From assembly GCA_038852285.1 (NCBI GenBank), contig JAWCKG010000012.1, positions 1 to 45,561 on the forward strand: DNA of 45,561 bases. The letters are read 5' to 3'. Position numbers and translations under genes: made by a program. Positions 10,190 through 14,808 of this stretch are shown here, piece after piece. This stretch comes from Candidatus Bathyarchaeia archaeon. Its GTDB lineage: Archaea > Thermoproteota > Bathyarchaeia > 40CM-2-53-6 > DTGE01. The notes beneath the pieces are model-generated. The model was not told where the DNA came from and searched no databases. It saw nothing but the letters and a program-made list of their open reading frames with translations. Within the stretch, counting starts at the first letter, position 1; each line of letters opens with the position of its first letter.

Positions 10190-10197
10190 TTTATATA
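10190..10197 (+). promoter_or_regulatory. TATA box of the microORF/ABCE1 locus
   Basis: TTTATATA is the best promoter match in this intergenic region. Archaeal spacing puts transcription near 10219-10220, inside the beginning of the microORF frame. This favours the internal TTG at 10240 as its start, or a longer transcript from an A/T patch at 10171-10178. Confidence 0.5.
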
Positions 10198-10209: not shown

Positions 10210-10317
10210 GTGAAAATTAAAGCTGGGAAGTGTCAGATCTTGCTTGAGGAAGAGGATTGGGAGGAAGACTGGGAAGAAGAAGAGTGGGAGGAAGAGGTTG
10301 AGGAAGAAGAGTGGTAG
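10210..10317 (+). CDS. Candidate acidic, tryptophan-rich microprotein upstream of ABCE1
   Basis: A 35-codon frame runs from GTG 10210 to TAG 10315-10317; from the internal TTG at 10240 it is 25 codons. After a short start (MKIKAGKCQILL) the product is almost only glutamate, aspartate and regularly spaced tryptophan: EEEDWEEDWEEEE, then WEEEVEEEEW. The tryptophans recur every 4-9 residues. The coding strand is nearly pure purine. It lies 56 bases before the ABCE1 ATG on the same strand and behind a good TATA box. I recognise no family. It could be a real acidic peptide, for example one mimicking nucleic acid or a ribosomal acidic tail, or simply a purine tract. No strong ribosome site is present. 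Confidence 0.4.
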   Translation: MKIKAGKCQILLEEEDWEEDWEEEEWEEEVEEEEW

Positions 10318-10373
10318 TTGTCCACTCTCCTGCTGAATCATCCAGCCCTATTTTATTTTCTTTGGTGTAGCTG

Positions 10374-12161
10374 ATGGGTAGGTTAGCGGTTCTAGATAGG
10401 GAGCGTTGTAAACCTAAAGACTGTGGTCTACCATGCGTGAAGTACTGTCCTGAGGTGAGGAACAGGGTTGAGGCGATTAAGCTTGACGAGTCGGGTAAGT
10501 TTGTTGTGGTTTCGGAAAACCTGTGCAGTGGATGCGGCATATGCGTGAAGAAGTGTCCATTTAAAGCGTTGTCGGTGGTAAACCTTCCTCAGGAGCTTGA
10601 CGTGGAGTGTAGCCATCGATATGGGTTGAACGCGTTCAAGTTGTTCAGGCTTCCAACGCCTAGGGATGGAACCGTTACCGGGCTGATCGGGCGAAACGGT
10701 ATAGGGAAGTCGACGGCCCTTAAGATCCTGTCTGGTGAAATTAAACCCAACCTAGGTCGATTTACAGACCCTCCAGAATGGGAGGAGGTTATAAGGGCCT
10801 ACAGGGGTTCCACGTTGCAGAACTATTTCACAGCGTTGAGCGAGCAAAGGCTAAAGGTGGTTTCTAAGCCTCAGCATGTTGACCTCATACCGAGGTACGT
10901 GAACGAGGAGGTCTCCGAACTCCTAAGCAGAATCGACGAGCGTGGAGCCTTAAACTGGATGAAGGAGCTCTTAAGCCTAGAGGAGGTTTGGGAGAGGACT
11001 ACCAGCGTGTTAAGCGGCGGCGAGCTGCAGAGGGTGGCCGTGGCCGCGGCTTTATGCCGAAACGCTGATGTATATATTTTCGACGAGCCCTCAAGCCACT
11101 TGGACGTTCACCAACGTCTAATGGTGGCTCGAGCCATCAGAACCTTGATCAGAGAGGATAAGACGGTTCTGTTGGCGGAGCATGATTTGGCTCTGCTGGA
11201 CTACTTGTCAGATCACATATGCGTGTTCTACGGTAAGCCCGGCGTTTACGGGGTTGTGTCTAGACCTCACGGGGTTAGGGTTGGAGTTAACATTTATCTG
11301 GACGGATTTCTCCCCGACGAGAATATGAGGTTTAGGGCTGAGCCCATACGGTTTCATGTAAAGCCGCCAAGGGATGAGAGTAAGGTGGGGAGGATCCTTG
11401 AATGGGACGCGATGAGAAAATCCTACGACGAGTTTACCTTGAAGGTTGGGCCGGGTAGGGTTCAAGGCGGCGAGGTTGTAGGGATGCTCGGGCCAAATGG
11501 GATAGGTAAGACCACGTTAGTCAAGATGCTGGCTGGGTTTGAGGAGCCTGACGAGGGATACGTGCCCACAGAGGGTTTGAAAATAAGCTACAAGCCTCAG
11601 TACATTTCTGGGGAGTATCGGGGGACGGTTGAATCGATTCTTAAGGAGGCTGCTGGACCACGGTATATGGAGGAAGGGTTTAGGGGTAAAGTTCTAAGCT
11701 CCCTCAACCTCATTGACTTCTTGGATAGGGATGTGGAAGGTCTCAGCGGCGGCGAGCTGCAGAGGGTGGCGATAGCGGCCTGCTTGTTCAGAGACGCCGA
11801 CGTATATTTTCTAGACGAGCCCAGCGCGTATCTGGACGTGGAGGAGAGGCTGGGGATGACTAGGCTTGTTCGAGACGTTGCGGAGGAAAGGGAAGCGTTC
11901 GCCTTCGTAGTGGAGCATGATTTAATTGCTCAAGACTTCGTAGCCGACAAGCTGATGGTGTTCACTGGTAGGCCTGGGGTTGAGGGGTACGCCAACCCTC
12001 CCACCGACCTGAGAAGCGGCATGAACGTCTTTCTAGCGGAAATGGACGTTACTTTTAGAAGGGACCCGTCTTCGGGGAGGCCGAGAGTGAATAAGCCGGA
12101 TAGTAGGGTGGATAGGTCGCAGAAGGAGGTCGGCGAATACTACTACGTTCCACCGGGTTAG
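10374..12161 (+). CDS. abcE1: ABCE1/Rli1 ribosome-recycling ATPase
   Basis: The 595-residue product starts with the two Fe-S cluster cysteine sets (CKPKDCGLPCVKYCP and CSGCGICVKKCP). Two nucleotide-binding domains follow: Walker A GRNGIGKST and GPNGIGKTT, signature LSGGELQRV twice, Walker B DVYIFDEPSSHLD and DVYFLDEPSAYLD, and H-loops AEHD and VEHD. ABCE1 splits archaeal and eukaryotic ribosomes after termination and contributes to initiation. The length fits the family (about 590-600). The two LSGGELQRV blocks are also nearly identical in DNA (GGCGGCGAGCTGCAGAGGGT). The ATG at 10374 is the first codon after a T-rich TATA-like stretch. It may be co-transcribed with the microORF. Confidence 0.97.
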   Translation: MGRLAVLDRERCKPKDCGLPCVKYCPEVRNRVEAIKLDESGKFVVVSENLCSGCGICVKKCPFKALSVVNLPQELDVECSHRYGLNAFKLFRLPTPRDGTVTGLIGRNGIGKSTALKILSGEIKPNLGRFTDPPEWEEVIRAYRGSTLQNYFTALSEQRLKVVSKPQHVDLIPRYVNEEVSELLSRIDERGALNWMKELLSLEEVWERTTSVLSGGELQRVAVAAALCRNADVYIFDEPSSHLDVHQRLMVARAIRTLIREDKTVLLAEHDLALLDYLSDHICVFYGKPGVYGVVSRPHGVRVGVNIYLDGFLPDENMRFRAEPIRFHVKPPRDESKVGRILEWDAMRKSYDEFTLKVGPGRVQGGEVVGMLGPNGIGKTTLVKMLAGFEEPDEGYVPTEGLKISYKPQYISGEYRGTVESILKEAAGPRYMEEGFRGKVLSSLNLIDFLDRDVEGLSGGELQRVAIAACLFRDADVYFLDEPSAYLDVEERLGMTRLVRDVAEEREAFAFVVEHDLIAQDFVADKLMVFTGRPGVEGYANPPTDLRSGMNVFLAEMDVTFRRDPSSGRPRVNKPDSRVDRSQKEVGEYYYVPPG

Positions 12162-12164
12162 CCG

Positions 12165-13304
12165 CTACATTTCTTCTACTTCTTCAAGCTTTCTTGGAAG
12201 ATATTGGTCTACGATGAAGGTTAAACCATACCTGCTGAAGGCTTCCTGCTCAGCCTTCTTCCTTATCTTTAAGAAGGTTTCGATCTCCCTCCTCCAAAGC
12301 TTGGATCCGTATCGAGGATCCTTCTTCAACTCGTATAGCCTTTTAACGTCTAAGTCGTTAAGGGGATCTGAAGGCAACTTGTAATCCACGATGTCAGTCG
12401 CCCAAACTCCAGCCCACTTGGCGTCAGGTGTGTTCAACTCTCGAAGGTGGGCGGCGTTGGCTGAGCCGCTCACTATGACCATGGCTATGTGCATTCCCCA
12501 CGGGTCTCCGTCGGTTAAGATGATCACAGGTAGCTTCAGCTCCTTGTTCAGCCTTCTTATCAAGGCCCTGGTGGCGCGTGGTGCCTGTCCAGCCGTCTGC
12601 ACCAGTATGGCTTTAAACCTCTCATGAACCCTTTCCTCAACGAACCTTGTGAAGAGCGCGCCTTTCTCGATGGCTATGACCTTGTCTGCCTTACACTCTT
12701 TGAACTCCGCGCTGGTTAAGGCTGGGCCGATCATCACTCCATCCGGGTGGCTGGTTAGGTTAAGGGTTTTACCCTCATACCCGGGCACTGTGTACTCTAT
12801 GGTGAGGTCGCCGAATATGGCGCTTCTCTCTTCAGGGAATACGTGGAACTCCTCTCTAGCCCTACCCACGACCGTTTCGAGGTCTGTGAGTATGCTGTCG
12901 CTTTCAGGTTGGTCGATGAAGTTCACGTCGAAGGCCTGCGCGGAGTAGAATACATCCCTTAACGTGCTGGTTCGGTTTTGCTGGGTTAGCTCCTTGACGA
13001 AGTAAGCCGCCCAGATCAGCTGGGTGAATGGTCTGATGTGACGAATGTTCCTCGCGCTTCTCCTAACGTTTTTCCCACCTAAAATGTACTGCCTCAGCTT
13101 GTCGTCATAGCGTATGTTTGAGATCGAGCGGCTTGGCATCTCTATCCAAGGAAACTCTCCTTCGCTTAACTGATGGTATACGGTTTCCCCCAGCCTCGTA
13201 AGGTCTTTTAACACCTGTATTCTTCTGTCTTTCACGGTTCCCGCTTCTCCACCGGCTCCGGGGCCTCCGTTCCCACCTTTTCCCCTCTTACCAGCTTTAC
13301 TCAT
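12165..13304 (-). CDS. top6A: DNA topoisomerase VI subunit A
   Basis: The 379-residue product has the Spo11/Top6A architecture. A winged-helix 5Y-CAP domain carries TLRDVFYSAQ, with the catalytic tyrosine at about residue 120. A TOPRIM domain follows, with IEKGALFTRF (metal-binding glutamate) and ILTDGDPWGMHI (DxD pair). Topo VI cuts both strands and passes another duplex, using ATP through subunit B. The first 25 residues are glycine-rich and probably disordered. It overlaps the end of top6B by 8 bases, so the two are translationally coupled, and stops just past the convergent ABCE1 stop. Confidence 0.96.
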   Translation of the reverse strand: MSKAGKRGKGGNGGPGAGGEAGTVKDRRIQVLKDLTRLGETVYHQLSEGEFPWIEMPSRSISNIRYDDKLRQYILGGKNVRRSARNIRHIRPFTQLIWAAYFVKELTQQNRTSTLRDVFYSAQAFDVNFIDQPESDSILTDLETVVGRAREEFHVFPEERSAIFGDLTIEYTVPGYEGKTLNLTSHPDGVMIGPALTSAEFKECKADKVIAIEKGALFTRFVEERVHERFKAILVQTAGQAPRATRALIRRLNKELKLPVIILTDGDPWGMHIAMVIVSGSANAAHLRELNTPDAKWAGVWATDIVDYKLPSDPLNDLDVKRLYELKKDPRYGSKLWRREIETFLKIRKKAEQEAFSRYGLTFIVDQYLPRKLEEVEEM

Positions 13305-14808
13305 ATTTTCCCACCTTGGACAGCAACGCCTCTATTTCAGGCTCCCTCTGCTTATCCGCGAGCTTCGTGGAGAAGGTGGCTATTTTCGGCAGGAACTTTA
13401 GAAACACGTCTAACCGTTTTTTCTGTCTCTCTAGGGATTGTTTTCTAGTAAGGTAGGCGGAGAGTCCTCTAGCCACCTCTCTGAGGGCGTTGATGATTTC
13501 TCTTTCGACTTCAGGTCGATCGGCTATAAACTCCTTTCCCACCGTTTTGTACGGCACTTTCGTGCTGCAGATGTGGATGAAAACGGCTATGGGGCCGTCC
13601 GTTGGAATCTTATACCTTCGCCAGTCAATGAGGTTGTTCACAACCTTCCATGAAACATCGCTCGCCTCGTCGAACAATAGTGGTATCTTATTGGCGTAAC
13701 GGTAGAGTTGTATTCTATTTAGCTTGGGAATTTCTCCGCCGTAGGCGATCCCGGCTTCGACGATGAAGGGGAATCCAGAGTAGGCTGAGGGCTGTCTTTG
13801 AGTGACAGCCACGAACTCAGGGTTGAGCTCCTTTCTGATGCCGGTTTCCAGCAGTTTGACGCCGATGGGGGACAGGCAGCTGGGGTCGGGTGGCAGGAAT
13901 CCCTCGTAGTTTTTCATGGCGTTGGCTAGGACTACGATTTCCCCAGGGTTCAGCTTTTTAGGATCCTTTCTAAAGTCGATCTCAGCGTACTCCAGAAACT
14001 TCTTGGCGGTTGTTTCCCCTACCCTTTGGAAGTGTTTTTTCATGAATTCCTTCATGTTCCTTGTCTCCGTCGCCGCTATCATTCTCTTCAAGGTTTCCGC
14101 GTCGACTCCGTGGGGATGTGGCTTAGTGGTTTTGGGTGGGGGTGGCATGTTCTCCGTTGCTCTGAGGAATCGGTAAAGTCTACCCCTCGGGTCGATGAAC
14201 GTGATGTCAGCGTAGGGGGCTACGATGGCCGTTTGTTTCAGGTAATCCAGTATCTTAGGCATGGCCCTTAAGTAATCGGCTTCGGTTTGGAATTGAATGA
14301 TGGTTCCACGCCATTTCCTCGTTTTCAGCTCCCTTTTGCTTAAGATGATTGGCTTATTGCTCTGTATATCTATCATTAACTGGAATTCACAGGCCCCGGA
14401 TTTCCCTGTGCTGGATACAACCAGGGTTCCCGTGTGGGTGGTTATCTGGCCGTAAAGCAGCGCCATTTTTCCACCTAAACCGAAAGTCCCCCTTGTCTGC
14501 CTCAGGTGGTATTTGGATCCGTAGAGGATTTGGGCGAAGGCTGATGGGATATGCTCAGCCGGTATTCCTAGACCGTTGTCCTCCACTCTAACCTCGTAGA
14601 CGCTGGTGGACTTGGACGTTTCCTTCACCTCGGAGACTCTGATGTACAGGTTCGGTGGGATGCGTTGCATTTCACACGCGTCTAGGCTGTTTTCCACAAG
14701 CTCCCTCACAGTTGTGTACATGGCCCTAGCGGGGTTGGTGAACCCGGCTATGTCCCGGTTTCGGTAAAAGAAGTCGGCTGGGCTGATTTCTTGGAATACT
14801 TCAGTCAT
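13297..14808 (-). CDS. top6B: DNA topoisomerase VI subunit B
   Basis: The 503-residue product is a GHKL ATPase. The N-box ELVENSLDACE lies at about residues 36-46, EDNGLGIP follows, and the ATP lid is RGTFGLGGKMALLYG. An H2TH-like middle domain precedes the transducer, where STKVPYKTVGKE supplies the family lysine contacting ATP. It dimerises on ATP binding to drive strand passage by subunit A. The length is slightly below the usual 520-530. It is separated from the PNO1 gene by 3 bases, so the topoisomerase belongs to the large minus-strand informational operon. Confidence 0.96.
   Translation of the reverse strand: MTEVFQEISPADFFYRNRDIAGFTNPARAMYTTVRELVENSLDACEMQRIPPNLYIRVSEVKETSKSTSVYEVRVEDNGLGIPAEHIPSAFAQILYGSKYHLRQTRGTFGLGGKMALLYGQITTHTGTLVVSSTGKSGACEFQLMIDIQSNKPIILSKRELKTRKWRGTIIQFQTEADYLRAMPKILDYLKQTAIVAPYADITFIDPRGRLYRFLRATENMPPPPKTTKPHPHGVDAETLKRMIAATETRNMKEFMKKHFQRVGETTAKKFLEYAEIDFRKDPKKLNPGEIVVLANAMKNYEGFLPPDPSCLSPIGVKLLETGIRKELNPEFVAVTQRQPSAYSGFPFIVEAGIAYGGEIPKLNRIQLYRYANKIPLLFDEASDVSWKVVNNLIDWRRYKIPTDGPIAVFIHICSTKVPYKTVGKEFIADRPEVEREIINALREVARGLSAYLTRKQSLERQKKRLDVFLKFLPKIATFSTKLADKQREPEIEALLSKVGKYE

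Follow-up and report, generated by a model that had tools for sequence, protein, structure and literature searches.

Few proteins are as conserved in archaea and eukaryotes as ABCE1. The eIF3j/Hcr1 N-terminus is acidic and contains Trp, the small acidic protein DSS1/Sem1 harbours spaced Trp or Phe residues and has several basic partners, and the C-terminal tails of bacterial SSB and of T7 gp2.5 are acidic, with a terminal aromatic residue and a carboxylate that is read. eIF3j/Hcr1 assists ABCE1 in recycling (PMC7196836). The C-terminal tail of the archaeal ribosomal stalk protein aP1 (SEEEALAGLSALFG type) binds EF1A, EF2, IF5B and ABCE1, with its Phe residue in a hydrophobic pocket (PMC6791870). 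In yeast, Lto1 recruits the CIA complex for Rli1/ABCE1 through its C-terminal Trp (PMC4523923), and binding of the TCR tripeptide is dominated by the terminal aromatic side chain and carboxylate, Trp being the best residue (PMC13082141).

Here we describe free-standing microproteins of Thermoproteota that form a conserved family, to which an ORF at positions 10240-10317 of the analysed DNA belongs. We regard it as a new family that would work in the manner of known acidic-aromatic ligands without belonging to any of these. It has apparently not been described so far: we found no published description among open-licence papers, no NCBIfam match for six representatives and, for the same six, a single Pfam match at E 5.8, under the curated cut-off; a PDB sequence search with two representatives returned nothing, low-complexity queries of this kind scoring poorly.

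The microprotein resembles DSS1/Sem1 in its small size, acidity and spaced aromatic residues, but it probably lacks the C-terminal helix of the latter, is nearly pure Glu/Trp and gave no match in that PDB search. It also shares an acidic character and a terminal aromatic residue with the SSB and gp2.5 tails, although these belong to DNA-binding proteins and the microprotein is a free peptide. eIF3j/Hcr1 is a larger, folded eukaryotic protein, and no homology to it was detected. The likeness to the aP1 tail lies in a short, flexible, acidic chain with a near-terminal aromatic residue, which in aP1 docks in pockets of ABCE1, EF1A, EF2 and IF5B. In contrast, aP1 is part of the ribosome, where aP0 anchors it, and its GLS-LF type tail ends in a short amphipathic helix, whereas the microprotein is free, has many Trp residues, ends on Trp and is devoid of such a helix; at 20-51 residues from the predicted start, it has neither a dimerisation/anchoring N-terminal domain nor a GLS-LF type motif (tails as described in PMC6791870). 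With the TCR tripeptide and yeast Lto1, which acts on ABCE1/Rli1, it shares an acidic residue followed by a C-terminal Trp carboxylate. However, the third-last residue is acidic in nearly all listed ORFs rather than Leu, Ile or Met (Leu1 also deviates at this position, with Gln; PMC13082141), the deca-GX3 motif of Lto1/Yae1 is missing, Gly representing 1.8% of the acidic segments, and no match to the Cia2 family (PF01883) was found in several carriers (G036, G020, G012, G101 and G214 among them).

An acidic microORF upstream of ABCE1

The window, i.e. the whole stretch of DNA analysed, comprises 45,561 nucleotides of a Candidatus Bathyarchaeia archaeon genome (contig JAWCKG010000012.1). The features around the microORF are the following.

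10190-10197, plus strand: TATA-like box TTTATATA, identified by motif count, at a position that fits an archaeal promoter
10210-10317, plus strand: open frame of the first-pass annotation, re-read here, with a GTG start, 35 codons and a stop
10226-10232, plus strand: weak Shine-Dalgarno-like motif GGAAGTG, with one mismatch to GGAGGTG
10240-10317, plus strand: likely coding sequence by comparison with the nearest relative, with a TTG start, MLEEEDWEEDWEEEEWEEEVEEEEW, 25 residues, and a TAG stop
10350-10363, plus strand: T-rich tract in the gap that separates the microORF from ABCE1, of putative function
10374-12161, plus strand: ABCE1 (Rli1), 595 residues, an ATPase of ribosome recycling that carries two Fe-S clusters

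The first-pass annotation had described an acidic frame with spaced Trp residues at 10210-10317, preceded by a TATA box and located 56 bases before ABCE1 on the same strand, with a composition deemed improbable for a random frame. All of this was confirmed. The frame translates as VKIKAGKCQILLEEEDWEEDWEEEEWEEEVEEEEW followed by a stop codon, and the 23 residues from position 13 to its end comprise 18 Glu/Asp, 4 Trp and 1 Val, with Trp spacings of 4, 5 and 9 residues and a C-terminal EEW; the tract is almost pure purine, GAA, GAG and TGG being purine-rich codons. A gap of 56 nt separates its stop from the ATG of ABCE1 at 10374. On a simple Glu/Asp/Trp scale, the acidic segment EEEDWEEDWEEEEWEEEVEEEEW scores 26.1, as opposed to 7.1 for the runner-up segment of the window, a maximum of 8.5 over 40 dinucleotide-shuffled copies of the whole window and of 11.7 over 2000 shuffles of the local tract. 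These scores, together with the pN/pS ratio of 38 relatives given below, rule out a chance frame.

Scans of the window led us to reject a tRNA or tmRNA reading and yielded no Rfam family, and a search for sigma-70 promoters and intrinsic terminators, whose models are unsuited to archaea, found nothing. An AlphaFold model of the frame from the single sequence consists of one helix with a pTM of 0.28, which says little.

The best relatives of the window's ABCE1 are from Candidatus Bathyarchaeota, at up to 64% identity. The PDB chain 5yv5_A is listed as ABCE1, with the title 'ATPase RIL'; we take this entry to be the ABCE1-aP1 crystal structure. We read the ABCE1 tails of 80 loci and saw no Glu/Trp tail fused onto the protein, three of them being unreadable to the end (L020 is masked, L076 and L083 are cut or out of frame). 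Convergent with ABCE1, two minus-strand genes at 12165-14808 were assigned by eye to topoisomerase VI subunits A and B.

The box TTTATATA occurs three times in the window for 0.68 expected. Given the usual archaeal spacing, transcription from the copy at 10190-10197 is expected to begin near 10219, downstream of GTG 10210, and therefore this codon is probably not the true start. We found no exact Shine-Dalgarno match of at least 4 nt before TTG 10240 by SD scoring; this codon sits 7 nt 3' of GGAAGTG. In the nearest relative (L009, genome G001), the corresponding TTG is preceded by GGAGG, and thus by homology the window protein probably starts at TTG 10240 and is 25 residues long. In this relative, the corresponding interval holds TATTTATTTATATA, and a TATA-like element lies between its microORF and ABCE1. 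The T-rich tract of the window might possibly be a terminator or a promoter element.

A conserved and probably translated family

We fetched 80 ABCE1 loci and scanned their 5' flanks with a composition score. ORFs of the same type and on the same strand, e.g. MIFEEEDEWEEGEDEEWEEEEW, were found 5' of ABCE1 in most Bathyarchaeia loci and in many Thermoprotei and Methanomethylicota loci. A codon-aware comparison of 38 ORFs of the Bathyarchaeia set, chosen by composition alone, gave a pN/pS of 0.198 with a pS of 0.655. GAA and GAG interchange freely across these ORFs while the residues stay, and synonymous sites are nearly saturated. A pN/pS value of 0.036 was set aside as circular, its ORFs having been selected through an amino-acid pattern. 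Among 129 predicted starts, which are mostly ATG, 37 have exact matches of at least 7 nt to GGAGGTGAT, versus approximately 0.7 in shuffles.

Conservation of the Trp spacing and of the reading frame in relatives had been proposed as a check, and a purine tract kept without its frame as grounds for rejecting a peptide. Both spacing and frame are conserved upstream of ABCE1, and a broken form was found in one lineage only (f9; L191 and L244), where the microORF is shortened and genome G155 has TGA in place of a TGG that would extend the frame. This looks like gene decay in a single lineage. That frame, Trp spacing and terminal Trp are kept despite near-saturated synonymous sites strongly supports a translated peptide, and the spread of relatives across the whole archaeal phylum identifies a real protein family rather than a chance frame. 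We consider the existence of the gene to be almost certain.

The 132 distinct ORFs of the family are composed of 70% Glu, 16% Trp and 6% Asp, together 92%. At their C-termini, 128 have Glu-Trp, 1 has Glu-Phe and 3 have Glu, although many were recovered by a pattern requiring a terminal Trp; in those found via ABCE1 and not via that pattern, a terminal Trp is present in 39 of 42, compared with 12% Trp elsewhere. Trp separations are mainly 4-7 residues: a distance of 5 was observed 111 times for 37 expected, and distances of 2 or 3 only 20 times for ~101 expected. As the sequences are related within clades, neither these counts nor those of terminal Trp residues are independent. The spacing is unlike the 3-4 of an amphipathic helix, which suggests that the Trp residues may be arranged as beads on an acidic string. 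Unlinked copies in f6 and its relatives (L114-L119, L155, L179 and L186) have a basic N-terminus of the MSKRKTPPK type before the Glu/Trp run, i.e. a positive head on an acidic string, and lie near a glycosylase-like gene.

Distribution and genetic environment

An xEEEW-stop pattern was found in 118 of 300 Thermoproteota genomes, and its reversed form in only 16 of these. The corresponding numbers were 7 and 3 among 79 genomes around an Asgard centre, and 3 and 6 among 120 genomes around an Archaeoglobus centre (Halobacteriota). When read individually, the Asgard-group matches contained a single true member, L232, and the Halobacteriota matches none. A second pattern matched 124 of 300 genomes and, in one further family, f28, 24 of 31; carriers include genomes that we would assign to Sulfolobaceae. 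In f15 genomes, neither pattern detected a microprotein, save for one out-of-frame match in G264. The second match in the window's own genome (G000:C19, L239) proved not to be a microprotein, and no family-like ORF was present at the matches of G065, G287, G198, G053 (second site), G161:C11, G167:C52, G177, G255 and G093. Some genomes have several copies, two to four in G027 and G002. The extra copies of G027 (L138 and L159), which has four pattern matches, are longer and lie ~1.2 kb from proteins that by eye resemble TnpB of transposons, and they may therefore travel with mobile elements. ABCE1 is nearly universal in archaea, but many groups have no microprotein, and ABCE1 must thus function without it in these. 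Gene finders and family libraries overlook such low-complexity, strongly conserved archaeal microproteins.

The gene is located on the same strand within ~1.5 kb 5' of ABCE1 in 24 family labels (f1, f2, f3, f4, f5, f7, f8, f11, f14, f16, f18, f20, f24, f26, f28, f33, f35, f40, f41, f42, f43, f50, f53 and f54), at distances of 42 to 1400 nt; over 1 kb and intervening genes separate some copies from ABCE1. The microprotein gene flanks the ABCE1 cluster in divergent orientation in part of f14, part of f26 and one f31 genome, and is not near ABCE1 in nine labels (f6, f19, f22, f32, f34, f37, f46, f51 and f52), where its neighbours vary and include speD, PhoU-like, RadA and EF2 genes. We tabulated linkage for 79 of the 124 second-pattern genomes, leaving out chance matches that were out of frame, matches unlisted for the second pattern and some genomes without a listed ABCE1 position. 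Forty-five were on the same strand within 1.5 kb, 2 on the same strand further away, 6 on the opposite strand and 16 on another contig (two of which, G065 and G287, are among the false matches mentioned above), and for the last 10 no ABCE1 position was entered. The microprotein gene is thus independent of ABCE1, yet adjoins it more often than any other gene seen.

Possible functions

We tentatively favour a free acidic-aromatic microprotein that would act on ABCE1, a proposal that still falls short of an even chance. The peptide would remain unfolded and serve as a multivalent ligand of ABCE1, whether the latter is by itself or sits on the 30S subunit. Its acidic runs would occupy a basic surface, rRNA-binding or hinge, and its Trp side chains would enter hydrophobic pockets, foremost that of the C-terminal Trp, whose carboxylate is free, in a docking that might resemble that of the acidic, Phe-bearing aP1 tail on aABCE1. 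The outcome would be a tuning of ABCE1 loading or release during recycling. Probably made from its own promoter beside ABCE1, the microprotein could be co-expressed with it without translational coupling. Coding conservation, Shine-Dalgarno sites, phylum-wide spread, the terminal Trp, linkage to ABCE1 and the aP1 precedent argue for this proposal; the nine unlinked labels, the many groups without microprotein and the missing amphipathic helix of aP1 argue against it. The basic partner put forward by the first-pass annotation for such a peptide is in any event plausible.

In a broader form, to which we would give not quite an even chance, annotation would have missed a phylum-wide recycling cofactor, a Glu/Trp microprotein of 20-50 residues that may bind ABCE1 via its spaced Trp residues and C-terminal Trp carboxylate and control how firmly ABCE1 holds the small subunit, or how it is loaded with Fe-S clusters, as a minimal archaeal counterpart of the action of eIF3j or Lto1 on Rli1. 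Kept beside ABCE1 over most of Thermoproteota, the gene offers a testable ABCE1 partner in culturable hosts.

Nearly as likely as an ABCE1 ligand, if somewhat doubtful in itself, is a general nucleic-acid mimic or chaperone of the DSS1/Sem1 or SSB-tail kind, whose acidic-aromatic chain would lie in the basic grooves of another protein, candidates being RNA polymerase or a Zn-ribbon factor, a ribosomal protein or an OB-fold protein. Adjacency to ABCE1 would then reflect inherited gene order and co-expression. The varied surroundings of the unlinked copies in nine labels and the multiple copies of G027 and G002 fit such a role, and in the linked cluster the direct neighbours are often CGI-121 and Zn-ribbon RPB9-like genes rather than ABCE1 (L232, L141 and L142). 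However, ABCE1 is the sole neighbour that recurs over 24 labels and in both orientations, and PDB sequences gave no match to DSS1 or any other protein, such sequences being hard to score.

An improbable alternative is that of an Fe-S adaptor, in which the terminal acidic-Trp-carboxylate would bring the Fe-S delivery machinery to ABCE1 in the manner of yeast Lto1 and the TCR tripeptide. It draws on the recruitment of CIA by the Lto1 C-terminal Trp (PMC4523923), on the dominance of the terminal aromatic residue and carboxylate in TCR binding (PMC13082141), on the two clusters of ABCE1 and on an aconitase gene seen by eye near three Thermoproteaceae-like loci. Nevertheless, the eukaryotic reader is Cia1-Cia2, and PF01883 was not found in G036, G012, G101, G214, G020, G081, G131, G149, G167, G191 and G197. 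The genomes without a match are MAGs of 95-98% completeness; the window's own genome has one match. Conversely, f15 genomes, without the microprotein, mostly have three PF01883 copies. Fe-S targeting is weakened by this lack of Cia2-family matches in many carriers and by the abundance of the family in non-carriers, to which are added a Glu at the third-last position, which is aliphatic in the TCR motif, and the missing deca-GX3 motif.

The first-pass annotation had also suggested a leader peptide regulating ABCE1, in which translation of the Glu/Trp codons or destabilisation of the ribosome by the acidic chain would sense recycling or Trp supply. Acidic nascent chains destabilise ribosomes in bacteria and yeast, and the same-strand distances are short in many lineages (56 nt here). 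Nonetheless, divergent (f14, f26 and f31), distant and unlinked (nine labels) copies exist, which excludes this as a general role; moreover, the microORFs have their own Shine-Dalgarno sites, the nearest relative has a TATA-like element between its microORF and ABCE1, and the terminal Trp, needless for a leader, is kept. We thus regard a leader peptide as very unlikely. Lastly, a conserved RNA element whose purine-rich codons, in an almost pure purine tract, would give a frame as a by-product is refuted by codon-level conservation, with a phylum-wide frame, GAA/GAG swaps, a pN/pS of 0.20, Shine-Dalgarno motifs before the start and no Rfam match in the window.

Other genes at the microprotein loci

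The fullest cluster, in L232, comprises genes for a phosphoribosyltransferase, CGI-121, the microprotein, an RPB9-like Zn-ribbon protein and ABCE1. An RPB9-type Zn-ribbon protein of ~94-108 residues with an acidic tail is coded between the microprotein and ABCE1 in L232 (1618-1902), L141 (4494-4784), L142 (5249-5575) and L206. In the L232 protein, Pfam detects the N-terminal Zn ribbon alone and no TFIIS C-terminal domain, which may point to a TFS paralogue that lacks the cleavage domain. In the three Thermoproteaceae-like loci with the gene for aconitase, an Fe-S enzyme (L136, L137 and L158), the microprotein gene is unlinked to ABCE1, and speD was identified nearby by Pfam. The microprotein gene of L146 (f31) diverges from a set of genes read by eye as those of aIF1A, the Rio1 kinase, a KH-domain protein and ABCE1, each of which has a link to the small ribosomal subunit.
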